A DNA stretch of 64,000 nucleotides, taken from positions 62,001 through 126,000 of the forward strand of contig NZ_CP059454.1 in NCBI RefSeq assembly GCF_022023855.1. Reading direction: 5' to 3'. The notes beneath the pieces were generated by a model that saw nothing but the letters and a program-made list of their open reading frames with translations, was not told the origin of the DNA and ran no database searches. Below, in pieces: positions 18,728 to 53,492 of this stretch. The translations under genes were made by a program, and so were the position numbers. This DNA is from Azospirillum brasilense (GTDB lineage: Bacteria > Pseudomonadota > Alphaproteobacteria > Azospirillales > Azospirillaceae). Positions within the stretch are counted from its first letter, which is position 1; the number at the start of each line of letters is the position of its first letter.

Positions 18728-19825
18728 ATGGAACAGCGCCCTTCCGCCCTCCGCCTCGCCGCCAGGACTCTCCGCGCCGCCCTGACGAGGAGCGGCCTGT
18801 CCGCGCCGCCACCGCAGCGCAAGCCCTTTGTCTATGCCATCGAGGTCTTCTGGTGCGACCGCGACGGCGCCTATCTGGAAGGCTGGATCCACGCCTATGA
18901 GCGCAGGATCCTCACCTTGCGCGTGGTCGCGGGGGACGATGCCTATGAGATCGTCAGCTTTGCGCCCCGCCCGGACGTGCTGCCCCATTACGCGGAGTTT
19001 CCCAACAGCGCGGAGAGCGGCTTCAAGCTGTACCTTCCCTGGCGGGCCGGGACGCCGGTGACCTTCGAGGTCGTCACTGCCGACGACCGTTTCGTCGAGA
19101 CGGTGGAGCTTCCCCGTTCTCCGGAGGCCAGCCGCAAGCCCTACTGCCTGACCGACGGCAGCGTCTGGCAGGACCCCAAGCCGGAGCACGGCGCGGCGGA
19201 GCGGGCGTTCGAGGATTTCCAGCGCGCGGTGAACGAGCGCAAGCTGGTCGTCGCCGAGGTCGGCGCCCGCGTGGTCAGTTCGCAGATGAGCCCGCTGCGC
19301 GCCGCCTTCGCCGGGGCGGAACGCTACATCGGCATGGATATCCACGCCGCTCCCAACGTCGATGTGGTCGGCGATGCCCATTATATCCACGAGCTGATCG
19401 GGAAGGGGGCCGCCGGGGCGGTCTTCTCACTGTCGGTGATGGAGCATCTGGCCCAGCCCTGGCTGTTCGCCTACGGCGTGAACCGGGCCTTGGAGGTGGG
19501 CGGCCTGACCTATCACCTGACGCATCAGTCCTGGCCCCTGCACGAGGAGCCGAACGATTTCTGGCGCTTCAGCGACGAAGGGCTGAAGGTGCTGTTCGGA
19601 CCGGCGATGGGGTTCGAGGTGATCGCCGCGGGGCTGAGCAGCCGTGTGCGCATCTATCCGGACCAGCGCCAGCCGGCGCAGGCGCTGATGCCGTTGGTGT
19701 CCTCCTTCGGCGGCGCCTTCGTGCTGGCGCGCAAGGTGCGGGACCTGCCGGACGGCGCGGTGTCCTGGCCGACCGACCGCGACACGTCGGAAAGCCGCGC
19801 CAAGCATTATCCGCAGCGCGGCTGA
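18728..19825 (+). CDS. Class I SAM methyltransferase with N-terminal GW module
   Basis: 365 residues. Residues about 34-105 form the GW-core module shared with four GTs in this window: Y-x-IEVFW, then LEGWIHAYERRILTLRVV, RPDV and SGFKLYLPW. The C-terminal half is a SAM-dependent methyltransferase: VVAEVGARVVSS (a variant motif I), YIGMDIHAAPNVDVVGDAH, and FSLSVMEHLAQPW, as in Methyltransf_11 enzymes. Motif I lacks the usual GxGxG, so activity should not be assumed. It follows the DUF2142 gene by 92 bases. The module occurring in both a methyltransferase and GTs suggests a shared binding partner, perhaps the glycan or its carrier. Confidence 0.75.
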   Translation: MEQRPSALRLAARTLRAALTRSGLSAPPPQRKPFVYAIEVFWCDRDGAYLEGWIHAYERRILTLRVVAGDDAYEIVSFAPRPDVLPHYAEFPNSAESGFKLYLPWRAGTPVTFEVVTADDRFVETVELPRSPEASRKPYCLTDGSVWQDPKPEHGAAERAFEDFQRAVNERKLVVAEVGARVVSSQMSPLRAAFAGAERYIGMDIHAAPNVDVVGDAHYIHELIGKGAAGAVFSLSVMEHLAQPWLFAYGVNRALEVGGLTYHLTHQSWPLHEEPNDFWRFSDEGLKVLFGPAMGFEVIAAGLSSRVRIYPDQRQPAQALMPLVSSFGGAFVLARKVRDLPDGAVSWPTDRDTSESRAKHYPQRG

Positions 19826-19949
19826 ACTCGGCATCAAGGGCGCGGCATCAAAGGCATTGCGCTTTGCCGAGTGTTTCCCTTAGGTCATCCCGCAGCGTTG
19901 CGGGCGGAGACCGCATGTCGAGGCACCGTTTTTCGAGGGCAGGGGACTG

Positions 19950-21749: not shown

Positions 21750-21777
21750 CCACGCGTCCGAGGACGGAAACGCCCCC

Positions 21778-22824: not shown

Positions 22825-22962
22825 CCGGATCCGCAAGCAAGAGGCGGAGGGGGGCTGGTCCGAAGGAAAACGACGCAAGGTGCGCGTCGCCTCTTCCCGC
22901 CGTGCAGGGTGCTGCCCTATGGTCGGACCGCAACGGTTGCCGTGCCGCGAACGAGATCGTCG

Positions 22963-23832: not shown

Positions 23833-23837
23833 CGGCG

Positions 23838-23859
23838 CGCCCGTCTTCGGCGGCGGGCG
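23838..23859. terminator. Weak hairpin between convergent GT genes
   Basis: CGCCCG at 23838-23843 pairs with CGGGCG at 23854-23859 across a 10-base loop, in the 36-bp gap between two convergent stop codons. There is no T-run on either strand, so it would be at best a weak or Rho-assisted terminator. Confidence 0.35.
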
Positions 23860-23868
23860 GTGAATGGA

Positions 23869-24984: not shown

Positions 24985-24992
24985 GCCGCGGC

Positions 24993-27842: not shown

Positions 27843-27871
27843 GGAACTCGGCTGGAAAGACGCGAAGGGTG

Positions 27872-28918: not shown

Positions 28919-29146
28919 TTTCTCGTAAGAAGCTCTGGCTTACGGATGTTACAGTCTTGAAACCGCGGGCATAAGGAAACAGACCAGAAGGCTGCGGGCC
29001 ATCAATAGGCGATGGAGTGCATCAAGCCACTACGGGAATCGTGTGGCGGGAAGCTCCGAAGCATCGGATTTCGCTGTAGCATGTCTGTCCCAAAACCTCT
29101 ACACAGGGAACCGGTTTCCTTTCCGATAGTGCAAGTTCCGGCTGCC

Positions 29147-30589
29147 ATGACGATTTCCTTGCAGAACACGCGCATTCATCCCGTCATCCTTTCCGGCGGC
29201 GCCGGGGTCCGGCTTTGGCCGATGTCTCGGGAACAGTATCCCAAGCAGTTCCTGCCGCTCTGCTCGGAACGCTCGATGCTCCAGGATACCGCGCAGCGGG
29301 TGTCCGATGCAGCGCTGTTCGCCGCTCCCCTGATCGTCTGCAACCAGGAACACCGCTTCGTCATCGCCGAACAGATGCGGCATGCCGGATGCGGCAAAGC
29401 GCGGATCGTTCTGGAGCCGGTGGGGCGCAACACCGCCGCCGCCGCCGCCGTGGCGGCGCTGCTCATCGCGGAGGATGACCCCGACGGACAGCTCCTGCTG
29501 CTGCCGGCCGACCACGCGATCAAGGACGAGGGCGCGTTCCTCCAGGCCGTGGCCACGGCGTCCGCCGCCGCCGCCGCCGGCCATCTGACCACCTTCGGTA
29601 TCGTGCCGACCGCTCCGGAAACCGGCTATGGCTACATCCGCCGCGGCGATGCGGTGGGTGGCCATGACGGCGCCTTCCGGGTCGCCGCCTTTGTCGAGAA
29701 GCCTCCACGCGAGCAGGCTGAGCGCTATCTGGCGGAAAAGAGCTTCTTCTGGAACAGCGGCATGTTCCTGCTGCCCGTGCGCCAATATCTGGCCGAGCTG
29801 GAGCGCTGGGAACCCGCGGTCCTGGACGCCTGCCGGAAGGCGCTCGCCCAGGGCCGGTCCGACCTTGATTTCTTCCGCCTCGACGAGGAGGCTTTCGCCG
29901 CTTCTCCCAACATCTCCATCGACTACGCAGTGATGGAGCGCACGGAGGCCGCCGCCGTGGTGCCGTGCAGCATCGGCTGGACCGACGTCGGCGCCTGGTC
30001 GGCGCTGTGGGACATCGGTGAGAAGGACCAGGGCGGCAACGTCTGCCACGGCGACGCCATCGCCTGGGACAGCCTCAACTGCTACGCCCGCAGTGAGGAC
30101 GGCGCCCTCATCGCCTTGCTCGGCATGGAGGACACGGTGGTGGTCGCCACCGAGGACGCCATCCTGGTCGCCGCGAAAGACCGGGCGCAGGACATCAAGC
30201 CGCTGGTGGAGCATCTGAAGAAGCAGGGCCGCAGCGAGCCGCTCCTGCATCGCCGGGTGCACCGCCCCTGGGGCTTCTACCAGTCGCTGCACGCCGGCGA
30301 CCGCTTCCAGGTGAAGCGGCTGACGGTGGCGCCCGGCGCCCGCCTGTCGCTCCAGAAGCACTATCATCGCGCCGAGCATTGGGTCGTGGTCAATGGGACC
30401 GCGCTCGTGACCCGCGGGGACGAGCAGATCCTGCTGCGCGAGAACGAGTCCGTCTACATTCCGCTGGGCACCCCGCATCGGCTGGAAAACCCGGGCAAGG
30501 TGCCGCTCAACCTGATCGAGGTGCAGTCCGGCTCCTATCTGGGCGAGGACGACATCGTCCGCTTCGACGACCATTACGGCCGCTCGTAA
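29147..30589 (+). CDS. manC: Mannose-1-phosphate guanylyltransferase / mannose-6-phosphate isomerase
   Basis: 480 residues from the ATG at 29147, which gives the family length; upstream starts add up to 45 non-conserved residues. The N-terminal guanylyltransferase has ILSGGAGVRLWPMSREQYPK, LEPVGRNTAAAAAVAAL, ADHAIKDEGAF and FVEKPPREQAERYL. The C-terminal cupin has RPWGFYQSLHAGDRFQVKRL, QKHYHRAEHWVVVNG with metal-binding His/Glu, and PLGTPHRLENPG. It makes mannose-6-phosphate from fructose-6-phosphate and GDP-mannose from mannose-1-phosphate, which feeds Gmd and Fcl at 54718-59559. In Azospirillum the equivalent has been called noeJ. Phosphomannomutase is not in this window. Confidence 0.95.
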   Translation: MTISLQNTRIHPVILSGGAGVRLWPMSREQYPKQFLPLCSERSMLQDTAQRVSDAALFAAPLIVCNQEHRFVIAEQMRHAGCGKARIVLEPVGRNTAAAAAVAALLIAEDDPDGQLLLLPADHAIKDEGAFLQAVATASAAAAAGHLTTFGIVPTAPETGYGYIRRGDAVGGHDGAFRVAAFVEKPPREQAERYLAEKSFFWNSGMFLLPVRQYLAELERWEPAVLDACRKALAQGRSDLDFFRLDEEAFAASPNISIDYAVMERTEAAAVVPCSIGWTDVGAWSALWDIGEKDQGGNVCHGDAIAWDSLNCYARSEDGALIALLGMEDTVVVATEDAILVAAKDRAQDIKPLVEHLKKQGRSEPLLHRRVHRPWGFYQSLHAGDRFQVKRLTVAPGARLSLQKHYHRAEHWVVVNGTALVTRGDEQILLRENESVYIPLGTPHRLENPGKVPLNLIEVQSGSYLGEDDIVRFDDHYGRS

Positions 30590-31755: not shown

Positions 31756-31791
31756 CCGCCTGGCCGGGTGCGGCAAGAGAGGCATGAGACA

Positions 31792-34305
31792 ATGACCACG
31801 GGTGGAGCGTTCGGCTACTTCATCGAGCGGATCGAGGTCGGGACCGAGTTGCGGATCGAAGGCTGGGCCTTTCACAGCCGGCATGGCGCCTGCGGTTTCG
31901 ACGTGGTGATCGACCGTGGGAAACGGCCTCCCGCCGTCCACGTCCAGGCGGGGATCGACCGCCACGACGTCGGCCTTGCCCTCAGCGATCCCCTGGCGGA
32001 CCATTCCGGATTCGTGGTGATCGCGGCTTTGCCGCTCGACACGTCCGCCGTCGTTTTGCGACTGACCGCCGGGGACGAGGAGTGCCTCGTCCCGCTGATG
32101 CTGCGCGAAGGACTGTCGTTGCGCAGTTGGCAGGTCGCCTGCGAGCGCGGTCCGGCGGCGGTGGACTACCGTTTCCTGACCGAGCGGGGGTTGCGCTACG
32201 CCACAGCCATGCCGTCGTCCCTGAGAGGGGCGCGCGAGGCGCTCGGCCTGCTCGGTCCGGCTTCGGGGGAAAAGGCCCCGCCCGTTCCTCCGCTCGCCGC
32301 ACCCGTGTCCATCATCGTGCCGGTTTATGGCGGCAAGCGGTTCCTGACCCCGCTGGTGCATGCGCTGATCGAGACGGTGGAGCTCAGGCACAGGATCGTC
32401 TTCATCGACGACGGCAATCCCGACCGCAGCATAACCGCCTTCCTGATTGCTCTCGCCACGTCGCTGGACAACGTGACGGTCGTGTCCAAGCCGTCAAACG
32501 AGGGGTATCTGAAGGCCGTCATCACCGGATTGGAGGTTGCGACGCGCTTGAATCCCGATGGCCATGTCGTTCTTCTCAACACCGACGTGGAGGTGCCGCC
32601 CGGCTGGCTGGAGCGGTTGGTCGGGCCGGTCGAGAGGATACCGTCCATTGCCAGCACCACCCCCTTCACCAACGCCGGGACCATCTGCGGCTTCCCCGCG
32701 ATGCCCGAGGACAACGAGCCTTTTCTCGGCGCCACGGTGGAGCGCATCGACGCGGCGTTCGCAGCCTTGTCGGACCTGCCTCCGGTGGAGGTGCCGACCG
32801 GTGTCGGCTTCTGCATGGCGCTGAACCGGCGGGCGCTGCGGGAGATCGGCTTCTTCGATCTGGACGCCTTCGGACGCGGCTATGGCGAGGAGGTGGACTG
32901 GTGCCGGCGGGCCTTGCGGCGCGGTTTCGTCAACGTCGCGGTGCCCAATCTCTATGTCCACCACCGGCACGGCGGCAGCTTTTCCAGCGACGAGAAGAAG
33001 GCCCAGATTCAGGCGTCCGGCGACATCATCCGGCAGCGGTATCCCGAATTCGACGCGGAGGTCCAGGACTTCATCCGCGCCGACCCGCTGCGCCCCGTAC
33101 GCGCGGCGGCGGCCGTCCGGATTTTGCAGGAAGACGCCCGGCCGCGGACGGTGCTGCTGTTCGACCACGCCGGGCACGGCGGGGCCGCCACCTTCCGGGC
33201 TAAGGAGATCGCGCGACTTCATGCGCAGGGGCAGGCGGTTCTGCTCGTCCGCCCCACCCGGCAGCCGGTGCTGGGGATGCCGGACGAAGCGGTGGACATC
33301 GAGTTGCTGCACAAGGAAGCCACCTTCCGTTTTCCGGCGAACGGCCTCGCCGATCTCGGCACTCTGGTCTCCGCCCTGCCGCTGTCCGAGATTGTGGTCA
33401 GTTCACTGGTCGATCATCCGAATGCCGTTGCGTTGATGGGGTTCATCCGGACGCTTCGGAGCGGGCAGCGGGTGCCGTTGCGCGTTTTGCATCATGATTA
33501 CTTGCCGGTCTGCCCATCCCTGAACCTGATCGACGCCGAAGACCGCTTCTGCGGGGTGCCGTCGCCGGAACGCTGCCGGGAATGCGCCCCGGCCAACCGG
33601 CATTTCCGCCGGCGGGAGGGGGACAACGGCCCGGCCGCTGGGAGCTTCGACATCAAGGCGTACCGCCGGACCTGGCAGGATTTCTTCGACCTTGCCGACC
33701 GCCACGTTTTCTTTTCCAGAAGCGCGCTCGCCGTGGTGCGGCGGGCCTTCACACTGCGCGACGAGCGTGTCCGGATCATCCCGCATCTGGCCGATCATGT
33801 CATCGTCTCGCCGCTGCCGACACCGGCGGCGACACCGCTGGCCCGCGTGGCGGTCATCGGGGGGATCAACGTGGCCAAGGGCTCCAAGATCCTGGACGCG
33901 ATGGTGCGGCTGGCGGACACCCACCAACTCCCCTTGCGGTTCGAGCTGTTCGGGAACATCGACCGGCCCATCGACTCCCCGCGCTTCCACGACAACGGCT
34001 GTTACGAGCCGGACGATCTGGCGCGGCGTCTCGCCATGCGTGGCTGCCACGCAGTCTTCCTGCCGTCGGTCTGGCCGGAAACCTACTGCTATGTCCTGGA
34101 CGAGGTGGCCGGGCTGGGCCTGCCGGTCGGCGTCTTCGACATCGGTGCCCCGGCGGAGCGGCTGCGCCACTGGTCCAACGGCTTCATCGTCTCGTCGCCG
34201 ACGCCGGAGGCGGCGCTGTCGGCCCTGCTGACGGTAACCGCTGGCGTGGTGAGGGCGTCTGTGGATCAGCCTCCCTCATCGTCGCCGTCATACCCACGGG
34301 GCTGA
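31792..34305 (+). CDS. GW module - GT2 - GT4 fusion glycosyltransferase
   Basis: 837 residues from the ATG at 31792. Residues 8-95 are one copy of the GW-core module (GYFIERIEVG, RIEGWAF, DRHDV, HSGFVV). GT2 begins near 171 (VSIIVPVYGGKRFLTPLVHA) with FIDDGNPD, VVLLNTDVEVPPGWLERLVG and YGEEVDWCRRALRRG. The C-terminal half from about 452 (VLLFDHAGHGGAATFRAKEI) is a GT4-like domain with a CPSLNLIDAE/CRECAP cysteine-containing insert and the conserved C-terminal VWPETYCYVLDEVAGLGLPV. The last 40 bases overlap the end of the convergent gene on the other strand. Confidence 0.82.
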   Translation: MTTGGAFGYFIERIEVGTELRIEGWAFHSRHGACGFDVVIDRGKRPPAVHVQAGIDRHDVGLALSDPLADHSGFVVIAALPLDTSAVVLRLTAGDEECLVPLMLREGLSLRSWQVACERGPAAVDYRFLTERGLRYATAMPSSLRGAREALGLLGPASGEKAPPVPPLAAPVSIIVPVYGGKRFLTPLVHALIETVELRHRIVFIDDGNPDRSITAFLIALATSLDNVTVVSKPSNEGYLKAVITGLEVATRLNPDGHVVLLNTDVEVPPGWLERLVGPVERIPSIASTTPFTNAGTICGFPAMPEDNEPFLGATVERIDAAFAALSDLPPVEVPTGVGFCMALNRRALREIGFFDLDAFGRGYGEEVDWCRRALRRGFVNVAVPNLYVHHRHGGSFSSDEKKAQIQASGDIIRQRYPEFDAEVQDFIRADPLRPVRAAAAVRILQEDARPRTVLLFDHAGHGGAATFRAKEIARLHAQGQAVLLVRPTRQPVLGMPDEAVDIELLHKEATFRFPANGLADLGTLVSALPLSEIVVSSLVDHPNAVALMGFIRTLRSGQRVPLRVLHHDYLPVCPSLNLIDAEDRFCGVPSPERCRECAPANRHFRRREGDNGPAAGSFDIKAYRRTWQDFFDLADRHVFFSRSALAVVRRAFTLRDERVRIIPHLADHVIVSPLPTPAATPLARVAVIGGINVAKGSKILDAMVRLADTHQLPLRFELFGNIDRPIDSPRFHDNGCYEPDDLARRLAMRGCHAVFLPSVWPETYCYVLDEVAGLGLPVGVFDIGAPAERLRHWSNGFIVSSPTPEAALSALLTVTAGVVRASVDQPPSSSPSYPRG

Positions 34306-37300
34306 TAGCCAAGCGCCGCCGCCGGATGCAGACGGGGGCTGTACCACCGGCTCCGCCGCGGCACCGGGGCCGGCAGGCCGGCCAGCACGGCTTTGCTGGG
34401 AAGGGGCGGCTGGACATGGGTGCGCTCCGTCAGATGCCAAACGCTGAAGGGCGTGTAGAGCGTCCTCTTGTCTTCCGCATGGGCGTGCAGCGCGATGGCG
34501 CTCGCGATCTGAGCAGCCGGCGTGTCGGGCGGGAGCCGGCGCAGAAGATCGCGCAGGAAGCCGGCGCGGGCCAGCCAGTGGCTTGGCGACACGCCGTCCA
34601 CGAACCGCTGGCAGAACAGCATGCCGTGATAGCCGGCGTCGCCGGCCGGGCGACCGTAGTCGGCGGTGGCCAGGAACCCTCCCAGGCCGAAGAAACCACC
34701 GGCCCAGGCGACCCGCTCGTCGGGATCGAGAATCCGGCCCCCGATGGCGACCGCCTCGCCAACCCCGTTCAACAACCCCGCGAGTTCGAGCAAGGCATCC
34801 GGGGTTCCGGGACGGCAGTCTGTCCGCAGAAAAGCCACGGCGTCGCCATCCGCGCAGGCTTCGGCGAGCAGGATGGCGCAGGAGTCCCTGTGCAGGGAGA
34901 TGCGCGTCGGCCACCGCTGCACCCCGGCTCTCTCCAGGCCCGCCGCCAGGCCCGCCGCGTCTGCCGGCGAGGACACCTGTATCCGGACTGACGCGATCGG
35001 GCAGTTCCGTTGCGCCAAAACCGCGGTGATCATGTCCACCGCGTCGTCGTCGTCCCTGTCGGCCGCGATCATGTCGACCGCGATCACCAGCGCCACGCCG
35101 CACCCGGCCCCGTCCCTGGGCGCCAGCCGCCAAACCCCCGGCTTTGGGAACAGGCTGTTGATGGCGACGGTCAGCGTCCGGTCCTGGCCGGTCAGGGCCA
35201 GATGCCGTTCCAGCACATGCCGCTGGCTGTGCAGCGCGTCCGGTTTCAGGCTGGTTTCGGCGGACGCGGTGGAGCCGGGATTGATCCGCCAAGCGTACAG
35301 GAGATGCGGCACATGCACGATGCCGTATCCGGCCCGTTCGACGCGGGTGAAGGTGTCCCAGTCGTGGCTCCAGGTCGCCTTTGGGTCCGTGTAGGCGCCG
35401 ATCTGCACGGCCACGTCGCGGCGCAGGGCACAGAGATGGCAGGTGAAGCAGATGTTGGTGTGCAGAATCCGGTCGAAGTCCGGCTTGTGGAAGGGGGAGA
35501 AAAGCCGCGACTGCGGATCGCTCTTGAACTCGTCGGAATAGAGGACCGCCGGCAAGCCGTGGGCATGTATGTGCTCCGCCATCACCTGGAGCGCGTCGAG
35601 CGTCAGGAAATCGTCGGCATCGACCGGCAGGACATAGTCGCCGCGGGTGGCCTGGAAAGCCAGCCCATAGCCGGCCATGATGCCCTTGTTCTCCGGGCTG
35701 ACGATCACCGTCACGTTGTCATGGACGGCCACGCCGCGCAGCCAGTCGAGCAGTTCGGGACGGTGGTCGCCGTCGCTCACGATCACCCATTCGAAGTTCC
35801 GGTAGAACTGGTTGAGGATCGTCTTCTCGATCTCGCGCAGGAACCGGAGCGGCTGTTTGTAGATGCTCATGAAGAAGGAGAAACGGATCGTCTCGGCCAC
35901 CCGCGGCCGGGTCCGCGCCGCCGCGATGCGGGCCAGGATCTGGGCCTCCACGTCCCGGACGGGGCGGGCAGCGGGGGCGCGTTCGATCTCGTAGAAGGGA
36001 TTGGTCGTGGAGAAGTTGGGGTTGAGGTACGGGTCGGCTTCGATCCCCCAGCGCTTCACGAATTCCTGGAGTTCCCAGTTGAAGGTGCCTTCCTTCGACA
36101 GGGATTCGAAATGGTAGAGTTCGATGGCGGGGTCGATGACGATCCGCAGCCCCTTCACGCGCACCTTGTTGCAGAAATCGACATCGTTGTAGTTCAGGCT
36201 GAGGCCGGTGTCGAAGCCCCCGACCTCCTGGTAGAGCGCGCGCGACACCAGAAGGCAGGCGGCGGTCGTGGCGGCCGCGTTGTGCGTCAGTTGCGCGATT
36301 CCCTGCGGCCCGGAGGTCAGACGATGCTCGCCGATGACGGCGTGGGTCGGCACGCCGTTGGGAAGCAGGACGCCGACATGCTGGATCGTGCCGTTGGCGA
36401 ACAGCAGGCGCGGGCCGACGACACCGACGCCCGGCTGGGTGGCCAGCCCCACCATGTCGCGCAGGAAGTGCTTCGAGATGGCCTGGATGTCGTCGTTGAG
36501 CAGAAGCACATAGTCGCCGCGCGCCTGCTCCACCCCCAGGTTCACCCGCTCCGAGAAGTTGAAGGACGGGCGGTTGGCGTTGATTTCGCGCAGGTTCGGA
36601 AAGGCGCGTAGAAAGCCCAGCGCTGTGGCGTCCAACTCGCCGTTGTGCACGACGACGATCTCGAAGCGCTCATAGCATTCGCTGCCGAAAAGGCTGAGGA
36701 TGCAGTTTCGCAGGATGTCGACCGACGCCCCTGAGACGGTGCCCTTGCGGCCCGCGGTGGGGATGACGATGCTGACGAGCGGGGCGGGCGAGGGCGGCGC
36801 GTAGACGACGCGCCAGTTGCCCGCCGACCAGTGCGGATGCACCTCGAAGGGGGTGGCCGCCTGCTGGGCCAGGGCCTCCTCGATGGCCGTCTTCTGCCGT
36901 TCGACCGCGTAGCTCTTGGCCGACAGGACCTCGGCGCTCGATCCCGGAATGGCCACCCAGTGGTACAGGATCTTCGGAACATGCACGAAGCGGTCGGTGA
37001 TCCCGGCGACGCGGAGCGCCAGATCGTAATCCTGGGTCCCGTCGTACGCGCTGCGGAATCCTCCGGCCTCGTGGACGATGGACGCGCGGTAGCAGGTCAG
37101 GTGCCCGATGTACATGGTGCTGCGCAGCAGCTCGGGCGACCAGCCCGGCTTGTGGGTCGCATCGTAGAAACGACCGTCGACGCTCATCTTGTCCTCGTCG
37201 GAATAGACGGCGTCGGGGTCGTGGGCGACGATGGCGGCGGCGATTTCATAAAGCGCGTCCGCCGTCAGCAGGTCGTCATGGTCGAGCAGGGCCAGCCATT

Positions 37301-38873
37301 CGCCGCCGGCCATGGCGAGCGCGGCGTTCGACGCGGCGGCGATGCCGCCGTTGGACGGCCGGTGAGCCACGCGGATGCGGGGATCCCGCGCCGCGAACTC
37401 CCGCAACAGCTCCTGGATGTGCGGGCTGGGGGAGGCGTCGTCGACGATGCACAGCTCCCAGAAGGGATAGAGCTGTTCCAGGACGGACCCGACGGCAGCG
37501 CGCAGCCACCGCTCCGGCGTCTGGTAGACCGGCATCAGGATGGAGATCGTCGGCCAGCCGTCCCGTTCCGCGATCCGTCTCAGGATGCCGGCGGGAGAGA
37601 AGGTCCTCGGCGCGGGTTCTCCCGTGTCGGGTCCGCCCTTGCGGTTCTCCGCGAGCCCATAGCTGAGAAAATGATGATAGCCCGAGGGGGTGTCGCCGCC
37701 GGCGATCGCCTCCGACACGTCCGGGTTGTTCACGAGATAGCGGTGTTCGCAATAACCAGGCAGGCGCGGCGTGGTTCCGGCCAGATCCTCGCGCAGCCCG
37801 TAATGGCGCCAATGCTCGGCCCCGGATGGGAGCTCGTCCCTGGAAACCGCGCCGGCCACATCGGGGCGATGCGCTTGGTAGAGGCTTTCGGCAAAGCTGC
37901 CGAAGGTCGGCTCCACGGCGGCGCCCGCGGCTTTCTCAGCCGCCCAGTTCCGGCCGGTCGCGGTGCTTTTGCCATGGGCGTCGGCGCCCTGGACAAGGTT
38001 TGCGAATTCCGGTGTCCCCAGGAGTTGTTGGGGAGGAAGCGTGGGCAGCGCGCTCCATGATCCCGTGCCGCGGCCTTCGGCGGCCCCATGGAGCAGATAA
38101 TGCTGGTATCCGCTTACAAAATGGCGCTCCTGCACCAGGGGGTGGATATCGTCGTTGCGGTCCAGATAGGTCTGTTCGTCGAAACCCGGAACGGCGTCGA
38201 AGCCGAAGAGGCTTCCGGCGATGTGATAATGATCGGCGACGGTCCTGGCCTGGACGCCAGCCATGTTCCGGATGGCGCTGCCATACCGTTCGATGTACCA
38301 GGACTCGTTCATGGGAACGTGGGGGAAGCGTCCCTGCGCAAGACCGACGGACAGATAGTGCAGGTAAGGCGACGCGGCCTTCTCGTTGCACCAACTGGTC
38401 ACGTCCGGATAGGCCCGCTCGTACCAGAGCGCGTCGAAGACCTTCCCGTTGGCGAGCAGGGCTACATGCCCGATCACGTCGACCGGCCAATGCTCCGGAG
38501 AAAGTCCTGTTTCGGCCAGACGGGGTGGAGTGCGGCCATGTCCATCAAGGCGGTGTCCCCCGAGGGAGACGCTGCCGATCAGCGTAGTATCGCCGAGAAC
38601 GTGAATGACCGGCGCGTTCTGACTGGACACGCGTTCCGTGGGGATGAGGATGGAAAAGGCATGGAACCCGGCGCCCATCCCGCCTTCCAGGAGGTCGCGG
38701 CGAAAATAGCGTGCGGATGAGAGTGCTATAGGCTGTCCTTCGGAAACAACCGTGATTTTGACTTTTTTCTCCAAATCGCCATCATTTATAGACCATCCCT
38801 GCGCAATGTAGCCAAAATATTCATCAAATATCACAGAGTCAAGAGACCCTGATGCTATGCCTGTCTTTTTCAC
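34266..38873 (-). CDS. Giant multi-domain glycosyltransferase (GW module, five FD..HY repeats, several GT2 domains)
   Basis: 1535 residues. In order: a GW module at about 16-80 (GYIAQGWSIND, FRRDLLEGGMGAGF); five FD-x3-Y/HY-x3-G repeats at about 146-182, 187-222, 231-268, 328-363 and 376-411 (for example YLVNNPDV then HHFLSYGLAENR); a GT2 from 442 (ISILMPVYQTPERWLRAAVG, VDDASPS, LLDHDDLLTADAL); a second GT2 near 690 (PLVSIVIPTAGRKG, LLLNDDIQAIS, NYNDVDFCNKVR); a third near 1000 (FSFFMSIYKQPLRFLREIEK, PVDADDFLTLDAL); and a degenerate GT2-like end. Architecture resembles large bacterial polysaccharide polymerase-type GTs (O-antigen or rhamnan assembly). The three intact acidic sites suggest three transfer activities. 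The first 150 bases of the gene are AT-richer. Confidence 0.85.
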   Translation of the reverse strand: MKKTGIASGSLDSVIFDEYFGYIAQGWSINDGDLEKKVKITVVSEGQPIALSSARYFRRDLLEGGMGAGFHAFSILIPTERVSSQNAPVIHVLGDTTLIGSVSLGGHRLDGHGRTPPRLAETGLSPEHWPVDVIGHVALLANGKVFDALWYERAYPDVTSWCNEKAASPYLHYLSVGLAQGRFPHVPMNESWYIERYGSAIRNMAGVQARTVADHYHIAGSLFGFDAVPGFDEQTYLDRNDDIHPLVQERHFVSGYQHYLLHGAAEGRGTGSWSALPTLPPQQLLGTPEFANLVQGADAHGKSTATGRNWAAEKAAGAAVEPTFGSFAESLYQAHRPDVAGAVSRDELPSGAEHWRHYGLREDLAGTTPRLPGYCEHRYLVNNPDVSEAIAGGDTPSGYHHFLSYGLAENRKGGPDTGEPAPRTFSPAGILRRIAERDGWPTISILMPVYQTPERWLRAAVGSVLEQLYPFWELCIVDDASPSPHIQELLREFAARDPRIRVAHRPSNGGIAAASNAALAMAGGEWLALLDHDDLLTADALYEIAAAIVAHDPDAVYSDEDKMSVDGRFYDATHKPGWSPELLRSTMYIGHLTCYRASIVHEAGGFRSAYDGTQDYDLALRVAGITDRFVHVPKILYHWVAIPGSSAEVLSAKSYAVERQKTAIEEALAQQAATPFEVHPHWSAGNWRVVYAPPSPAPLVSIVIPTAGRKGTVSGASVDILRNCILSLFGSECYERFEIVVVHNGELDATALGFLRAFPNLREINANRPSFNFSERVNLGVEQARGDYVLLLNDDIQAISKHFLRDMVGLATQPGVGVVGPRLLFANGTIQHVGVLLPNGVPTHAVIGEHRLTSGPQGIAQLTHNAAATTAACLLVSRALYQEVGGFDTGLSLNYNDVDFCNKVRVKGLRIVIDPAIELYHFESLSKEGTFNWELQEFVKRWGIEADPYLNPNFSTTNPFYEIERAPAARPVRDVEAQILARIAAARTRPRVAETIRFSFFMSIYKQPLRFLREIEKTILNQFYRNFEWVIVSDGDHRPELLDWLRGVAVHDNVTVIVSPENKGIMAGYGLAFQATRGDYVLPVDADDFLTLDALQVMAEHIHAHGLPAVLYSDEFKSDPQSRLFSPFHKPDFDRILHTNICFTCHLCALRRDVAVQIGAYTDPKATWSHDWDTFTRVERAGYGIVHVPHLLYAWRINPGSTASAETSLKPDALHSQRHVLERHLALTGQDRTLTVAINSLFPKPGVWRLAPRDGAGCGVALVIAVDMIAADRDDDDAVDMITAVLAQRNCPIASVRIQVSSPADAAGLAAGLERAGVQRWPTRISLHRDSCAILLAEACADGDAVAFLRTDCRPGTPDALLELAGLLNGVGEAVAIGGRILDPDERVAWAGGFFGLGGFLATADYGRPAGDAGYHGMLFCQRFVDGVSPSHWLARAGFLRDLLRRLPPDTPAAQIASAIALHAHAEDKRTLYTPFSVWHLTERTHVQPPLPSKAVLAGLPAPVPRRSRWYSPRLHPAAALGYQPRGYDGDDEGG

Positions 38874-39537
38874 TTCGTTTCTCTTTTGGTTTTTGTTGGT
38901 AGGAAGTCAATTTCACGGAAATTCTCGATCCCCATAGGATGTGCTTTAAGGTAAAGATCGATAGTAAAAATATTGCCTTTATTCATTAACATCCCTCTTC
39001 CTCTCCGTCCATCGCAAATAGGCTGCTGTCATTTCTCATGGTGCCCTCCGAAGGGCGGATGCCAAGCGCGGCGTGGTGGCACAAACATGTGGAATGGCGT
39101 GCCCTCATCCAGCGTTCACTTGCGAGAGAGGTCCTGTAAGAAAAATTCATCATCCAAAACATTGATCCCTGTTCTGGAGGAGGCACGGTGAAGGATGTCC
39201 CGCGTTACATTTCTGAAATGGTCCAGCATGGTTTTGGCTCTCTCCAGGCGGCATGGTTTCGTTGTCCCGAAATGAACCATTGCCTGTACCTGACATTGCC
39301 TTCCTGCATTGCGCCGGCTGGAAAAACGCGTGTTTTTTTTAAGCCTTCCCCAATCTTGGCAGAGGTTTGTTAGTAACCTGTTAACTGGAAGTTCTTGTAT
39401 ATCGATGTGCGCTTGCCAAGCGTCGATAGGGCGGAGTACATGTGCGCTTCCGTGCTCCCATCTCTCTACAGTGCCGGGCGGGCTATCAGTCGCGGCGTGT
39501 CAAGTCCAAGTAATGCACTAATTCGGAGTTGTGTGTG
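38874..39537. other. AT-richer divergent intergenic region
   Basis: 664 bases between two divergent giant GT genes. It must hold both promoters, but I cannot place -35/-10 boxes with confidence. A short frame at 39188 with a strong ribosome site is listed separately. GTTAGTAACCTGTTAAC near 39370-39386 is a loose dyad. Confidence 0.4.
39188..39373 (+). CDS. Possible small gene with strong ribosome site
   Basis: 61 codons starting GTG at 39188, preceded by GGAGGAGG with a 4-base spacer, the best Shine-Dalgarno match in this gap. The peptide (MKDVPRYISEMVQHGFGS...) has no recognised family, signal peptide or membrane segment and contains four cysteines. Codon usage is not clearly like the neighbours, and the spacer is somewhat short. 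It may be a chance frame. Confidence 0.25.
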   Translation: MKDVPRYISEMVQHGFGSLQAAWFRCPEMNHCLYLTLPSCIAPAGKTRVFFKPSPILAEVC

Positions 39538-42500
39538 ATGGCTGAATCGACTTTTGGCCTTGATTCGGTAGAGGCGATCAATTGGACGAACCGCCCCAGC
39601 AATAGGCAAGCGGGTGAAGTGAAAAAGAGTGCAGGTTTTCCTTTGAGCATCGTCGAAAGTCATGAATACTGTTCATTTGATTTGCAGAATTTTTCACAGG
39701 GTCCGCAGTTCCGTGGCTGTGTTGAGCGCATCGATCAAAGCTGCATTGGTGGTTGGTGCATAGATACGCATGGGCTTTCTAATCAAATTTACCTTAAAGT
39801 GTTGTTCCATGGTATTGTGATCGGCGAAACGGCTGCTCTGCAATCTCGACCGGATGTCCAGGCTGTTGTTGGGCAACCCTGTATGCCAGGGTTCAATTTT
39901 CCTCTGCAAAACTGCCGCATCACGGTCCAGGAACTGGAGATCGTCCGGCCCTTTGCCGAGGTGAATCTGGAGGCGCCCGCGGTGCTGGACATCATGATCG
40001 CCGAAGATGGCGTCCTGCTGCCGCGGATTGGTCAGGGCAGTTATGGTCTGACGAACGGAGCGGTCCTCAAGATCCTCCATCATCTTGTTGTCAAGGATGG
40101 GGACGCTGCGGTCGAGAGAGGCGCAGGGAACGATCCGAACCCGCAATGCTCGGCGTTGCTCGATGACATCGTTCTGGGTATCGCGTCCCCCAACGGAAGC
40201 GTGCTGCGGGGTGCTCTGGAGCGGGTTGACGAGGAAGGGGTCGTCGGCTGGTGTTTCGACCCGTTTGCTCTGACGAAGCAGGTTGCCCTGAAACTGGTCT
40301 TCCTGGGAATCGAACTTCGACAGTTCCTGGCCAACATGCCCAGGGGCGATGTCGAGAACGCTGTTGGCCATTCCTGCGCTCCCGGCTTCGCCGCGCAATG
40401 GTCGAGCGTCAGCCTGACCCCGGAGATTGCCCGCATCCTCTTCGCCCGCGTGATGCAGGACCCCCAGTCGCCCGCTGCCGTCGCCGTTCTGACGGTGGAG
40501 GAAGGCATCCGTGTCGAGCAGATCGTGGAATGCTCCATCCGCATGACGAACATCGAGCTTTTCTCGATGCTGATGGCGTCATCCTTGGCGACGGGAGGCG
40601 ACACCACGTTCCTGGATGAATTCCTGGACGTCTTTATGCGCAACGAGGCTCTGTTCCATGAGGATTGGGCCATCTTCCGCCGTCTTTTCAGCGCCGGTTC
40701 CCTGGTCTGGAAGGCGTCGGATGCCGCCGACGGTGAAGTCGGGGGGAGCAACGCGATCATCGATTACATCAAGGGGCGGTGTGTCCTGCATGGACCGCTG
40801 TTCGATGATCGCCATTACGTCTATCTGAACTCCGATGCGGCGGCTTCCTGCTTTCCGCCGCTTCTGCATTACATCCTCTATGGCCGGAAGCGGCAGCTTC
40901 AACCCCACCTTCTTTTCGTTCCAAAGTCGCTTGATCAGCAACCGGTCCCCCGTGCCGACTTGGCTTATCTCGACTTCTTGGAACGGCGGACAGCGGAGGA
41001 CTGGTATCCGCTGATTGACATCGTCGCGTTGCGCGCGGAAGCCCGATACAATTCTATCAAGAATGCCGATATTCTTGTTTCCCTTCACAAGGGAGAAATC
41101 TCTCCGATTTCGCTTTTCGATGTCGATTTTTACAAAAAATCCTGTGAGTTGAATGGAATTTCTTTGGATCAGGCGCCCGTCTATCATTACATGATGGAGG
41201 GGTGGAAGCTCGGCATTGATCCTCATCCGCTTTTCGACGCCAAATATTACCTTGTCGATCAGCGATCGGTCGACAAAATCTATAGTCAAACTGACCCCTT
41301 GACGATGTTTGTTCAGTCGAATGACCAGAGCCGGTTTTCGCCGTCTCCTTTCATCGACCTGATGCATCTGCGGCATTTGATGTGCATGGGAGGGTATGTT
41401 TACACCGGTGACGCCCGGCTCATCATCGATGCCCTGAAGAAGGATTGGATTTCGACCCACCCGCATTTGCAGGAGGCGATGATCGGCTTCCTGATGCAGG
41501 CCGACGAAGTCGCTGTGCTGAAAAAGCCACTGACGACCATGAACGACCTGCACACTCTGGTGGGAGCCATCCGTCTCGGCGAACTTCCGGATCATAAGGC
41601 CGGACCGGATGTCCCGAGCATCTCTGCTGCGGTGCAGCCGGCCATGGCGGAAGGCGAGACACTCCTCAGCATCATCATCCTCAACTACAACAAGCCGATC
41701 TACACGCTGCTGAGCGCCTATTCCGCCTGGGTCGCCGTTGCCGGCAGCAATTCGGAGGTGCTTGTGGTTGACAACGGCAGCTCGCCGTTCTTCGTTGAGC
41801 TGCTGTATCGGTATCTGGCACGCCTGCCCGGCGTCCGCGTGATCTCGAACCGGAAAAATCTGTTCTTTGGCGAAGGCAACAACGTTGCGCTCGACGTCGC
41901 CACCGGAAACTACATCCTGTTTCTAAACAACGACGCGGTGGTCCGTCGAGAGACCCTGGAGCGTCTTGTCGGCGCTATGGAACAGGACAAGGACATCGGT
42001 CTTCTGGCCCCGGTCTTGCTACTTCCCGACCGCCGGGTGCAGGAATCCGGCGGCATCATCTCGGGCTGCGGTCAGGTCATCCAGGAATCCAAGTTTGTCT
42101 CCTTCGAAGACTTTCACCGGATCTTCTCGAAGCGCGACCAGGTCCGCGTCTGCGATTACGCTTCGGCGGCCTGCTGCCTGCTGCGCAAGGAGGTCGCCCG
42201 CAAGGTGCTGGGCTTCGACATGCTGTTCGAGCCCTTCTACTTCGAGGACACCGATTTTTGCGTCCGCGTCCGTGCCCAGGGGTACCGGGTTGCGGTCCAT
42301 CGCGGGGCGTTCGCCTTCCACTTCGAGAACGCGTCGACATCCGAGTTCCTCGGCCGCTCCATGCTCGAGGTGATCGACCGCCAGAAGACCAAGTTCCGCA
42401 AGCGCTGGTTCGGCGTGTTCGAGGAAGGGGGCTTGGCGCTGCCCGCGGAAGCGACGACTCGTTATGCCGCCGCCAGTCGCTACGAAGTCCTTACGCCGCT

Positions 42501-43644
42501 GGATGTCCGGCCCGGCTATTCGGGGAAACCAGTGGCGTGGGTCTATTCCCCCTATGAAATCCGCGTCGGTGGCGGCGAGCGTTACATCCTCAGCCTGACG
42601 CAGGTGCTGTCCAACATCTTCGAGGTCTGGTTCCTGACGCCCAACAACGTCAGCCGGGCTCGTCTGGCCATGACCATGGACGATCTGGCCATCCGGCCGG
42701 GCCGCTTCCACACCGCCACGCTGGAAGACACCGCCAACTGGCCGCGGCCGGAGCTGTACGTCTCGATGGGCAACGAGATCGAACCTCCGACTCCCGGATT
42801 TGGCAGGCGCAACATCTTCCATTGCCAGTATCCGTTCCCGCTCCACCACACCGGTCCGTTCTCGATCAAGCGCATTCACGGCTATGACGCTGTTGTGGTG
42901 AACTCGCGCTACACGGCGGGGGCGGTCGAAAAGCTCCTGAAGGTCTACAACGTCGCGCCCCGGCCCGTTTACGTGCTCAGCCCGCCGGTTCCCGTTCCCA
43001 GCGAGGAGCAGCAGGCCCGAATCCTCTCCGAGAAGCCTTGGGACGCGGAGAAGGCTTTGGCCGTCAACATCGGCCGCTTCATGGCCGGTGGTCACAACAA
43101 GCGCCAGGACATTGTCCTGCACCTTGCCGAACGTGCCCAGAACGAGAAGCTGCCTGTAAATTTCGAACTGTATGGCGGCTTGAACAGCAGCTCCGATGAC
43201 CAAGCCTTCTTCGCCGGCCTTGTCGAGCAGGCGACACGGATCAAGGCGCAGTTGCGCATGAACGCGGCGCGGTCGGAAATCGAAACCGCGCTCACCAACG
43301 CGCTGCTCTACGTGCATCCCTGCGGAATGGGATGCTACCCGGGTTTCAAGCCGGAACAGGTCGAGCATTTCGGCATCACGGTGGTTGAAGCCATGGGCTA
43401 CGGCGCCTTCCCGCTGGTTTACAAATGGGGTGGGCCGGCGGAAATCGTGTCCGAGACAGGTGTCGGCGCCACCTTCGAAACGATGGAAGACGCTTATGGC
43501 AAGCTGAAGGAACAGCTCGCGCGTCCCGCCGAAGAACGCCGTTCCCGGATGGTGCAGGCCATGAAGCAGAGCCAGCGGTACAGCGAGGCGAACTTCCAAG
43601 CCACGATGCTGAAGATCGTGGAGGCGGTCGCCCTGGCGCGGTAA
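39538..43644 (+). CDS. Two GW modules - FD..HY repeats - GT2 - GT4 fusion glycosyltransferase
   Basis: 1368 residues from the ATG at 39538 (GGAG 9 bases upstream; the GTG at 39529 would be too close). Two GW modules lie at about 58-125 (GCVERIDQSCIGGWCID) and 223-290 (GALERVDEEGVVGWCFDPF). Two FD..HY repeats follow: FDDRHYVYLNSDAAAS with HYILYG, and LFDVDFYKKSCELNG with HYMMEGWKLGIDPHPLFD. A GT2 begins near 703 (LLSIIILNYNKPIYTLLSAY) with VVDNGSSPFF, FLNNDAVVRR and YFEDTDFCVRVRAQG. The GT4 half from about 1000 has YSPYEIRVGGGERYILSLTQ, NIGRFMAGGHNKRQD and the E-x7-E motif in PEQVEHFGITVVEAMGYGAF. A strong terminator follows. Confidence 0.85.
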   Translation: MAESTFGLDSVEAINWTNRPSNRQAGEVKKSAGFPLSIVESHEYCSFDLQNFSQGPQFRGCVERIDQSCIGGWCIDTHGLSNQIYLKVLFHGIVIGETAALQSRPDVQAVVGQPCMPGFNFPLQNCRITVQELEIVRPFAEVNLEAPAVLDIMIAEDGVLLPRIGQGSYGLTNGAVLKILHHLVVKDGDAAVERGAGNDPNPQCSALLDDIVLGIASPNGSVLRGALERVDEEGVVGWCFDPFALTKQVALKLVFLGIELRQFLANMPRGDVENAVGHSCAPGFAAQWSSVSLTPEIARILFARVMQDPQSPAAVAVLTVEEGIRVEQIVECSIRMTNIELFSMLMASSLATGGDTTFLDEFLDVFMRNEALFHEDWAIFRRLFSAGSLVWKASDAADGEVGGSNAIIDYIKGRCVLHGPLFDDRHYVYLNSDAAASCFPPLLHYILYGRKRQLQPHLLFVPKSLDQQPVPRADLAYLDFLERRTAEDWYPLIDIVALRAEARYNSIKNADILVSLHKGEISPISLFDVDFYKKSCELNGISLDQAPVYHYMMEGWKLGIDPHPLFDAKYYLVDQRSVDKIYSQTDPLTMFVQSNDQSRFSPSPFIDLMHLRHLMCMGGYVYTGDARLIIDALKKDWISTHPHLQEAMIGFLMQADEVAVLKKPLTTMNDLHTLVGAIRLGELPDHKAGPDVPSISAAVQPAMAEGETLLSIIILNYNKPIYTLLSAYSAWVAVAGSNSEVLVVDNGSSPFFVELLYRYLARLPGVRVISNRKNLFFGEGNNVALDVATGNYILFLNNDAVVRRETLERLVGAMEQDKDIGLLAPVLLLPDRRVQESGGIISGCGQVIQESKFVSFEDFHRIFSKRDQVRVCDYASAACCLLRKEVARKVLGFDMLFEPFYFEDTDFCVRVRAQGYRVAVHRGAFAFHFENASTSEFLGRSMLEVIDRQKTKFRKRWFGVFEEGGLALPAEATTRYAAASRYEVLTPLDVRPGYSGKPVAWVYSPYEIRVGGGERYILSLTQVLSNIFEVWFLTPNNVSRARLAMTMDDLAIRPGRFHTATLEDTANWPRPELYVSMGNEIEPPTPGFGRRNIFHCQYPFPLHHTGPFSIKRIHGYDAVVVNSRYTAGAVEKLLKVYNVAPRPVYVLSPPVPVPSEEQQARILSEKPWDAEKALAVNIGRFMAGGHNKRQDIVLHLAERAQNEKLPVNFELYGGLNSSSDDQAFFAGLVEQATRIKAQLRMNAARSEIETALTNALLYVHPCGMGCYPGFKPEQVEHFGITVVEAMGYGAFPLVYKWGGPAEIVSETGVGATFETMEDAYGKLKEQLARPAEERRSRMVQAMKQSQRYSEANFQATMLKIVEAVALAR

Positions 43645-45479: not shown

Positions 45480-45504
45480 CGACGCCCGCTGCGTCTCTGC
45501 GACG

Positions 45505-50121: not shown

Positions 50122-50134
50122 CTGAGAATTTAGC

Positions 50135-50162
50135 CCCCGCCGAGAAAAATTCGTCGGCGGGG
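50135..50162. terminator. Shared hairpin between convergent genes
   Basis: CCCCGCCGA at 50135-50143 pairs with TCGGCGGGG at 50154-50162 over 9 bp with a 10-base loop. It lies in the 47-base gap between two convergent stop codons and can serve both; neither side has a long T-run. Confidence 0.6.
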
Positions 50163-50168
50163 ACGTTG

Positions 50169-50909: not shown

Positions 50910-50984
50910 CGTTGATGCCTTTCACTTGAGGGATCGCGATAATTCCGGGATTTGACCGTTCTGCCGCTTAAGTCGGATGTCCGG

Positions 50985-53492
50985 TCACTCCGGCAAGGGG
51001 CGCAGCAGGCGGTATGGTGGGCCCAGCGGTTCGAAATGCGGGTTGTAACAGGGATCGTTGGACAGGCGCTCGCCCCAGCGGTTTCGCAGATGGCGGGCTT
51101 CTCCGGCCAGGCGGGCTATCTTCTCCGGCGTATCGTCGGTGCCGCGCGTCTGGGTTTCGAGGTGATAGAGCCGCGCGTGCGGCGTCCACAGAACCCGCAG
51201 TCCTGCCTGTTGGAGCTTCAGGCAGTAATCGACGTCCGCATAGGCGACGGGCAGATGCACCATGTCAAACCCTCCGACCGCTTCGAAAGCGGCCCTCGAG
51301 GTCAGCAGGCAGGCGCCGGTGACCGCCGAGACGGTGCGGGGCAGCGCGGCTTGGCCAAGATGTCCCGGCTCGTCGGCGCCAAGCCCCACGAAGGCGTGCC
51401 CGGCCGCGCCATCGGCGCCGAGGACGACGCCGGCGTGCTGAACCGTGTTGTTGGGGTAGAGCAATTTCGCCCCCACCGCCCCGACTCCGGGCCGGGCGAG
51501 CAGGGCCACCATCTCGCTCAGCCAGTCCGGGGTGATGGCGACGATGTCGTTGTTGAGGAAGCACAGCGCGTCGCTCTGGCTGGCGCCGGCTGCGGCGTTG
51601 TTGATGGCGGCCCAGTTGAAGGGACCGCGGAATCCGGCGACACGAAGCCGCGGATCGCGCGCCAACGAGTCGAAGAAGGGGCGCGACCGAGGATCGGTGC
51701 TGTCGTGATCGACCAGGATGATCTCGTAGTTGGGGTAATCGGTTCTGCTCAGAAGGCTGGATACACAGTCCCGAACCAGATCCACCGCATCCTTGGTCGG
51801 GATGACGATGGTCACCTTCGGGGCGGGCGAGGGGAGGGAGTAACGGACACGGGCACAGAACAGCCCGCCCGACCGGCTCCGCGTCTCGTGGTCGGCCGTG
51901 ACGGTGGCGCGGCTTCCGATACGCCGCTGGTGCTCGCCCACCACGCGCTCAATTCCGGCCATGATGGCGGCCGGGTCACCGCCGCCCGACAGCGAAGCCG
52001 GGTTGATGCGCCAATGATAGAGGATTCGGGGAATATGCCGGATGCCGCCGGCGCCGACCCGTTCCAGAAGGCGCAACACCAGATCATGGTCCTGGACGCC
52101 CTCGGTCCCCTCGCGGAGTCCTCCGACCTCAAGCACCAGCCGCCGCTCGACCACCAGGAAATGGCAGACATAGTTGATGGATTGCAGCAGTTCGGGATCG
52201 AAATCCGGCTTGAAGGCGGGAGCGGTGTGCCGGCCGTCGGGGCCGATACGGTCTTCGTCGCTGTAGAGAACGGGGGAGGGCGCCTTGGCCAGTTCCTCCG
52301 CCATGCAGAGCAGGGCATCGATGGCCAGCCGGTCGTCATGGTCGAGAAAGGCCACATGGCTTCCGGTCGCCAAGGACAGTGCCCGGTTGGTGTTGGCGCT
52401 GACGCCGCTCCGGGTTCCGCTGAACACTGCGCGGATTCGGGCATCGCGGGCAGCTTCCCGCTGGATCAGCATGCGCACCGCGTCGTCGCGGGACGCATCG
52501 TCGGCGATGCAGAGCTCCCACTCCCCATAGGCTTGGGCGCGAACGGATTCGATCGCCTCCGCCAGCATCCACAGCGGCGGATCGCAGACCGGCATCAACA
52601 CCGAGAAGAGTGGGCGTTTCTCCAGCGCGGCGGCCCGCTTCGGCAGTTGGAGCCGGCGCGTGGAGGTTTCGCTGTAATGGTTGTCGAAATAGGCGGCGTA
52701 GTCGGCAATGGACCGGGCGGAGGACACCCGCCGCCGCGGCACCTCGGCCCGAATTTCCCGCAGAATGCCGGCAAGTTCGTCCAGCCGATCCGACAGCGCG
52801 TCGGTCCGGTCGGCCTCGGCCTCGTTCAGCTCGATGGCGAGGGGGCCGAACACCACCGCGCCGCTGCGCCGGTCGCACAGTTGCAGGGTACGGCCCGACC
52901 GGACGGTGAGCAGAACCTCGAATCCATGGTCGCAGGTGGCGAAGCGGCTCAGGAGATCGCGGCGCTGCTGGTTGGCGACCGCTCTGGCAACGATGCGGTC
53001 GTCGACCAGGACATCGAGTTCGACCGTTTCCCGCTCATCCTCGGCATTGACCGCCCAGCCAATGACCCGCGCCCCCTCCACGCTGTCGACATTCGCCTCC
53101 ACCTTGCGGCTGGCGGACAGAGACAGGCCGTTCTCCAGGACATGGCCAGTCGCGGCGACACGCAGGGCGACGGGGGTGCGCGCCGGGTCGATCCCGGGGA
53201 ACAGGGAGGCGATATCCAGGGCGAAGCCGCAGGGCACCGGGCGGCCCAGCAACTGCGAGAGGCTTCCGCTCTCGCGGTCGGGCGTGAAAACCGCCTCACC
53301 CGTGCCGGCCGAGACGATGAGCGGCACGGGCGTGTCGGGCGCCGTGACGGACAGCACCCAGCCGGTCACACGCGTCCCGTCCCATGCTTCCACCCGTCCA
53401 TAAAAGGGGGCGGTTGCCGAGGGTCGTCCCAGATCGCCAGTGGTCGTGCCGCCGTTTTCCGGTTCGGAGGGGCGTGCAGGCAAATGGGTCAT
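50985..53492 (-). CDS. Two GW modules - two GT2 domains glycosyltransferase
   Basis: 835 residues from the ATG at 53492. GW modules lie at about 30-115 (YGRVEAWDGTRVTGWVLS, PCGFALDI) and 134-215 (NVDSVEGARVIGWAVNAED, RRDLLSRFATCDHGFEVLL). A short heptad region follows (about 222-250). The first GT2 has PLFSVLMPVCDPPLWMLAEA, IADDASRDDAV and FLDHDDRLAIDAL; the second has KVTIVIPTKDAVDLVRDCVS, LVDHDSTDPRSR and CFLNNDIVAITPDWLSEMV, with YADVDYCLKLQQAG. This is the architecture of bifunctional O-antigen chain enzymes such as WbbL/WsaE-like proteins. Both acidic sites are intact, so two transfers are likely. Confidence 0.85.
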   Translation of the reverse strand: MTHLPARPSEPENGGTTTGDLGRPSATAPFYGRVEAWDGTRVTGWVLSVTAPDTPVPLIVSAGTGEAVFTPDRESGSLSQLLGRPVPCGFALDIASLFPGIDPARTPVALRVAATGHVLENGLSLSASRKVEANVDSVEGARVIGWAVNAEDERETVELDVLVDDRIVARAVANQQRRDLLSRFATCDHGFEVLLTVRSGRTLQLCDRRSGAVVFGPLAIELNEAEADRTDALSDRLDELAGILREIRAEVPRRRVSSARSIADYAAYFDNHYSETSTRRLQLPKRAAALEKRPLFSVLMPVCDPPLWMLAEAIESVRAQAYGEWELCIADDASRDDAVRMLIQREAARDARIRAVFSGTRSGVSANTNRALSLATGSHVAFLDHDDRLAIDALLCMAEELAKAPSPVLYSDEDRIGPDGRHTAPAFKPDFDPELLQSINYVCHFLVVERRLVLEVGGLREGTEGVQDHDLVLRLLERVGAGGIRHIPRILYHWRINPASLSGGGDPAAIMAGIERVVGEHQRRIGSRATVTADHETRSRSGGLFCARVRYSLPSPAPKVTIVIPTKDAVDLVRDCVSSLLSRTDYPNYEIILVDHDSTDPRSRPFFDSLARDPRLRVAGFRGPFNWAAINNAAAGASQSDALCFLNNDIVAITPDWLSEMVALLARPGVGAVGAKLLYPNNTVQHAGVVLGADGAAGHAFVGLGADEPGHLGQAALPRTVSAVTGACLLTSRAAFEAVGGFDMVHLPVAYADVDYCLKLQQAGLRVLWTPHARLYHLETQTRGTDDTPEKIARLAGEARHLRNRWGERLSNDPCYNPHFEPLGPPYRLLRPLPE

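Follow-up and report, generated by a model that had tools for sequence, protein, structure and literature searches.

Capped O-antigens are recognised by the carbohydrate-binding domain of their exporter, Wzt (PMC9445017). The C-terminal domain of Wzt is a cytoplasmic domain that touches a growing O-antigen-type polymer, which is the role proposed here for a module of about 90 residues that occurs seven times in five proteins of a glycan locus of Azospirillum brasilense. The locus lies in a 64,000 nucleotide stretch (NCBI RefSeq assembly GCF_022023855.1, contig NZ_CP059454.1, positions 62,001 to 126,000), called the window below. Accessory sandwich modules on glycan enzymes are already known. 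The carbohydrate-binding modules (CBMs) of CAZy are non-catalytic and appended to glycan-active enzymes, sometimes in tandem, and the GW modules of Listeria are SH3-like and bind lipoteichoic acid. To our knowledge, the processivity of ABC-exported polysaccharides, and the way in which separate glycosyltransferases and modifying enzymes locate a common chain, are largely open questions. The sequence in question is proposed to be a targeting module without catalytic function, which most likely binds glycan and holds assembly enzymes on one polymer at the membrane, a reading to which a probability of about 0.4 is given. A module common to the enzymes and to a membrane anchor would be a direct handle on such a system, as a single domain could be deleted, exchanged or assayed, and it would name a stretch of alphaproteobacterial glycosyltransferases that the searched libraries leave blank.

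The initial annotation reported seven segments in five glycan-locus proteins, and all are present in the translated frames of P1 to P5 (Table 1). The pairwise identity among the window copies is 13-24%, in keeping with the view that they are diverged and not the product of recent duplication; the exception is the pair m4a and m4b, which are 34% identical. The invariant columns of the seven-copy alignment are G14, W15 and F60 in the numbering of m5b. The R-x-D motif is absent from m5a and its orthologs and kept in the neighbouring m5b, and loss of R46 mostly goes with loss of D48. A conserved salt bridge between D5 and R46 was considered and rejected, as these two residues, unlike R46 and D48, are not kept or lost together; kinship confounds this comparison.

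By sequence comparison, m3, m4a, m4b, m5a and m5b firmly form one family. Each group was compared using hhalign with a core of 113 other modules, from which the window copies and anything more than 38% identical to one had been removed. These five copies gave 97.1-98.9%, the best control giving 8%. The scores for m1 and m2 were 26.8 and 24.4, against 14.2 and 16.9 for the best of 21 controls in each case, and these two copies are probable members. The core includes 61 same-genus modules first found by a profile seeded with the seven copies, so its choice is not fully independent. Rows from three loci (L096, L107 and L122) sit in this core and in alignment A3; these are matches in metagenome-assembled genomes (MAGs) labelled Aquificaceae, Melainabacteria and Methylovulum, which are possibly contamination and are excluded from the claimed range of the module.

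A seven-seeded profile of same-genus relatives, which holds orthologs of most window copies, recovers all seven (domain E-values of 1e-9 to 7e-20; best decoy 1.2). A profile drawn from 30 named loci (37 frames), two of the loci in Azospirillum, recovers five, with m5a only partly recovered (E 3e-5), and misses m1 and m2 at E <= 1. When leave-one-out profiles were made from the seven sequences and compared with decoys (7,000 shuffled segments and reversed window frames), m3, m4a, m4b and m5b were separated from the decoys and m1, m2 and m5a were not. When both copies of a protein were omitted, m4a was only 0.2 bits above the best decoy and m4b was beaten by one. This test is too weak to decide on m1, m2 and m5a, and the group-to-core comparison was used instead. 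The failures of m1 and m2 would be accounted for if these copies were not members, the five copies in three proteins being real and the other two converging on a short pattern. This is very unlikely, since m1 and m2 exceed all 21 controls against the core, their G-W and R-x-D marks are in agreeing register, and the model of m2 has its elements in the order seen in m5b, although that model was guided by the family alignment.

Table 1. Module copies, the proteins that carry them and other features; positions are those of the window unless a contig (C2, C4, C6) is named.
Feature	Position	Strand	Remarks
P1: module m1, then probable S-adenosylmethionine methyltransferase domain	18728..19825	+	label by look only
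Module m1	18842..19132	+	hhalign 64.9%, E 6e-5
P2: m2, GT2, GT4-type end slightly under Pfam cut-off	31768..34305	+	ATG possible at 31792
Module m2, most diverged copy	31822..32121	+	hhalign 46.5%, E 2e-4; model pLDDT 78
P3: m3, second unnamed repeat, three GT2 stretches	34266..38873	-	
Module m3	38553..38834	-	hhalign 98.9%
P4: m4a, m4b, GT2, GT4	39529..43644	+	ATG start at 39538
Module m4a	39712..39984	+	hhalign 97.8%
Module m4b	40207..40473	+	hhalign 97.1%; 34% identical to m4a
P5: m5a, m5b, two GT2 stretches	50985..53522	-	ATG possible at 53492
Module m5a, without R-x-D motif	53130..53402	-	hhalign 98.2%
Module m5b, copy folded	52824..53099	-	hhalign 98.9%; AlphaFold2 pLDDT 96.1
ManC-like GDP-mannose pyrophosphorylase/isomerase	29012..30589	+	
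Two GDP-mannose 4,6-dehydratase family proteins	54580-55779, 55799-56767	+	
ABC-2 exporter pair	56847..58571	+	
Module on GNAT acetyltransferase	C6:128.5 kb		
Module in 1437-residue frame	C6:153.7 kb		
Module on tail-anchored protein	C4:445.2 kb		
Module on P1 paralog	C2:915.0 kb		

For m5b, AlphaFold2 predicts a confident seven-strand beta-sandwich, as judged by the predicted local distance difference test (pLDDT, Table 1), and for m2, the weakest copy, it predicts the same element order at a lower value. The initial claim of one family with one beta-sandwich fold is thus upheld for five copies and less firmly for m1 and m2. The closest solved folds are generic Ig/FN3-type sandwiches, which are frequent in a fold search. 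Foldseek gave no significant match, with several kinds of sandwich tied and no family assigned, although absence from its list proves nothing. The FN3/Ig-like accessory sandwiches, which are also found in glycoside hydrolases, have the size and the predicted seven strands of the module, but there is no significant Foldseek or sequence match to them and the module is mainly found on glycosyltransferases. A conserved G-W pair and repetition are shared with the GW modules of Listeria; however, Pfam GW has no match in the window proteins (E <= 1) or in eight relatives (E <= 0.1), and the GW fold is a different one. As with the CBMs, the predicted sandwich is non-catalytic and appended to glycan-active enzymes, sometimes in tandem. 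Unlike them, it has no match to a listed CBM family in the window proteins, the relatives or the listed partner families (best 25 of 31 and best 25 of 28), and its glycan binding is putative. The Pfam model of the Wzt C-terminal domain also has no match in the window proteins (E <= 1) or the relatives (E <= 0.1). In this case the difference extends to the setting, as the module is on enzymes and the exporter ATPase of the locus has no match to such a domain.

There is no Pfam or NCBIfam model for the module in the window proteins and relatives scanned, and no solved chain in the PDB matched it by sequence. Searches of the PDB sequences with alignments A1 and A2 and a secreted-type consensus returned weak, unrelated-looking chains, the best a mitoribosomal protein (E 0.0049), which were discarded. 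A word search of the literature found no description of the module or of the tail-anchored protein introduced below, and such a search cannot show that none exists. Both are nameless in the libraries searched. It had been suspected that similar modules may be known elsewhere under a name; the module is indeed present across many Alphaproteobacteria and in a few Lachnospirales, but no model for it turned up in Pfam or NCBIfam.

The genome is 7.39 Mb in 8 contigs, with the window on C6, a 181-kb replicon. It holds at least four further copies outside the window (Table 1), besides weaker matches. The seven-row profile matches 29 of 61 genomes, all of them within the 37 of the genus, and with a broader profile at least 31 of the 385 genomes of the class match, up to 13 candidates per genome having been scored. 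A typed consensus drew at least 30 loci, among those listed five from Methylobacterium, two from Azospirillum, two from sphingomonads and one from a Lachnospiraceae MAG; a good third of the listed loci are Acetobacteraceae by name. Five of 196 Lachnospirales genomes match, including the MAG first found. The frames read from four of these five all begin with a stretch that looks by eye like a signal peptide, and in these secreted-looking proteins the module precedes a 3D-type end. The consensus had no match in phage records at E <= 0.01. In plasmid records (E <= 1e-5) the N-terminus of P5 had two matches, both Azospirillum, and the consensus had two, in Azospirillum and Methylomagnum.

In the window all seven copies are N-terminal to their GT2 or methyltransferase partner, as initially described, but this does not extend to the wider family. 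Among 99 same-genus modules in 74 frames, 71 begin at or before residue 250 of the frame, 6 finish no more than 150 residues from its end and 22 are internal. For the other groups (52 modules, 37 frames) the same classes hold 22, 11 and 19; all of these positions are approximate, as frames were taken from stop to stop. The N-terminal rule thus describes the window locus and not the module family. There are one to five modules per frame in the genus and one to four in the other groups. By Pfam, GT2 is a partner in 20 of 34 and 19 of 39 frames from the genus and in 7 of 37 others, where a GT4-type partner is found in at least 21 and Hint_2 in 9. GNAT partners the module in 5 of 34 and 2 of 39 frames from the genus. 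Among the families listed, one or two members each have a sulfotransferase, WbsX, GT61 or methyltransferase partner. The methyltransferase label of P1 in the window depends on the look of the sequence, its catalytic part having no Pfam or NCBIfam match at E <= 1 and no PDB sequence match at E <= 0.01. Hint_2 is known from secreted proteins, and one open frame (L093:3094-7722) has an odd mix of Hint_2, module and GT4.

Orthologs were fetched through the module, and in these it stays in place. It is conserved about like the rest of the protein in P1 (86-95% identity, with 85-97% outside the module; the two most distant orthologs are at 44% and 58%) and P2 (68-82% and 74-79%), and less so in P3 (44-53% and 64-74%, with one more distant ortholog at 24% and 50%) and P5 (53-77% and 74-85%). 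Two P2 orthologs are missed by the profile although their module region aligns at 74% and 81%, and P4 has no close ortholog among the relatives fetched. Of the 45 genomes of the genus, 10 have a match to P1, that in G425 covering only the catalytic part. Relatives of the catalytic part of P5 at 76% or more are also found in 10 of 45 genomes, all in frames of 841-931 residues, and a second group at 44-48% is in frames of 820-1693 residues. Some of the latter lie in genomes without the module by the seven-row profile (e.g. G013), and the module thus looks like a portable addition and not a part of the catalytic unit.

Most of the fetched loci (29 of 34) encode a protein of about 220-295 residues with an N-terminal module, a middle part that looks coiled-coil-like by eye and, in 28 of the 29 by hydropathy scan, a C-terminal hydrophobic stretch (L127 falls under the threshold). 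An alignment of 18 of these tail-anchored proteins has ten invariant residues, one of them an arginine in the middle part, and six members have no NCBIfam match near the cut-off. Of 45 genomes of the genus, 38 have a match to the protein, two of these matches being partial or distant (G423 and G032). It is matched at full length or nearly so in 18 of the 385 class genomes, from which many of the query rows for this search derive. A frame of a GT2-type family is located within 5 kb of the tail-anchored gene in 27 of 29 loci, on the same strand in 25 of the 27. The two loci without it are L146, on a 5.6-kb contig, and L147, with 7.7 kb upstream and 1.5 kb downstream. This family was collected by BLAST to the member in L137, which itself has a Pfam GT2 match; the member in the present genome (L123:1917-4088) has no Pfam match at E <= 0.01 and is linked to the family by 27% identity over 421 residues. 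Going by profile comparison, the family carries a diverged copy of the module in its middle part (94.8%, E 5e-8, score 44.8; 20 shuffles at or below 13.4). Taken one by one, members at six loci had scores of 5e-5 to 0.05 and the remaining ones had none, and the member in L152 is without the G-W pair. The tail-anchored protein encoded near this diverged-copy gene is the strongest sign that the module places enzymes at the membrane, whichever ligand it binds.

The other neighbours of the tail-anchored genes, as far as rough gene calls allow, were taken from 102 frames at 15 loci. Within the best 25 of 81 families there are 15 GT4, 8 GT2, 5 polysaccharide pyruvyl transferase, 5 HlyD and 5 RTX-repeat matches. 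HlyD-type, ABC secretion and RTX-repeat genes flank several of these glycan loci, such as L137, and it is possible that the tail-anchored loci are linked to glycosylation of secreted proteins. Near the tail-anchored gene of this genome, a beta-helix protein with a CBM60 match is encoded at L123:9657-11366 on the minus strand.

It is possible that the partner of the module is another module or a single common protein, with the tail-anchored protein the hub of a membrane-bound assembly line. Under such docking one would expect to find the module on a coiled-coil protein anchored in the membrane and, in diverged form, on GT2-type proteins of nearby genes, and to see it shared by several different enzymes of one locus. 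Against this, in Lachnospirales the modules belong to small proteins that look secreted, the frames read there contain no glycosyltransferase, and a common interface would rest on few residues when the window copies are just 13-34% identical. In addition, the tail-anchored gene of this genome is on C4 and the enzymes on C6, and 11 of the 18 class genomes with the protein have no second clear module (E <= 1e-5); protein docking is rated unlikely. A broader form of this idea, also held to be improbable, makes the tail-anchored protein a membrane hub on which a cytoplasmic assembly line for glycans is built in many Alphaproteobacteria, a system that Azospirillum plasmids would have extended to a second, surface-polysaccharide locus. 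Here diverse enzymes would be gathered through the module on the tail-anchored protein, or with it on one nascent polymer.

A stable sandwich could also serve as a spacer or folding aid, positioning or stabilising long enzymes without a specific partner. The conservation of the module, which is mostly on structural-looking residues, and its varying position and number fit such a function. It is nevertheless doubtful, as so many genomes of the genus keep a protein that is little but module, coiled-coil-like stretch and anchor, and as a spacer would hardly explain why the partners have a glycan theme.

The partners are glycan-assembly enzymes, a membrane-anchored protein and secreted proteins, which fits a shared role in docking or glycan binding. 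Glycan contact is the factor common to the partners inside and outside the cell, and for this reason weak glycan binding is ranked first, ahead of protein docking and then of the spacer. The targeting reading envisages the module as a putative weak glycan binder that would keep cytoplasmic GT2, GT4, probable methyltransferase and acetyltransferase enzymes attached to one lipid-linked polymer as it grows at the inner membrane. Avidity would rise with the number of copies, both in a single protein and over the several enzymes of a locus. Either this polymer or the enzymes themselves would be held at the membrane by the tail-anchored protein. The exporter ATPase (57789-58571, 260 residues) has no Wzt C-terminal domain match and no recognisable carbohydrate-binding domain, and the module-bearing enzymes may supply the polymer contact, in effect replacing that domain at this locus. 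As 12 of the 29 tail-anchored loci belong to the genus of the window, these loci are not independent of one another.

The gene outfit of the window, which besides the features in Table 1 encodes other epimerases, GT2, GT4, GT61 and an RgpF-like protein, fits an ABC-exported polysaccharide. D-rhamnose is reported in the lipopolysaccharide of A. baldaniorum Sp245 (PMC9962177), and such a sugar would fit this outfit. A RepA_C replication protein (10651-11589) and a resolvase (1123-2070) point to a plasmid-like replicon. The third-position GC of P4 is below that of the adjoining P2 and P3, and that of small frames at 48.0-49.5 kb and of the frame at 53.5-54.6 kb is lower still; it is possible that the P4 region was recently acquired. 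Peptidase_S74 chaperone domains are usual in phage tail spikes, and one is encoded inside the glycan locus, at 44367-45479. A second repeat, Y-P-D-V ... H-Y-L-x-x-G ... E-G-R-x-P, was identified by eye in P3 (residues ~146-420) and P4 (~420-600), in regions without a Pfam match, and its pattern was also seen by eye in L064:7559-9298.

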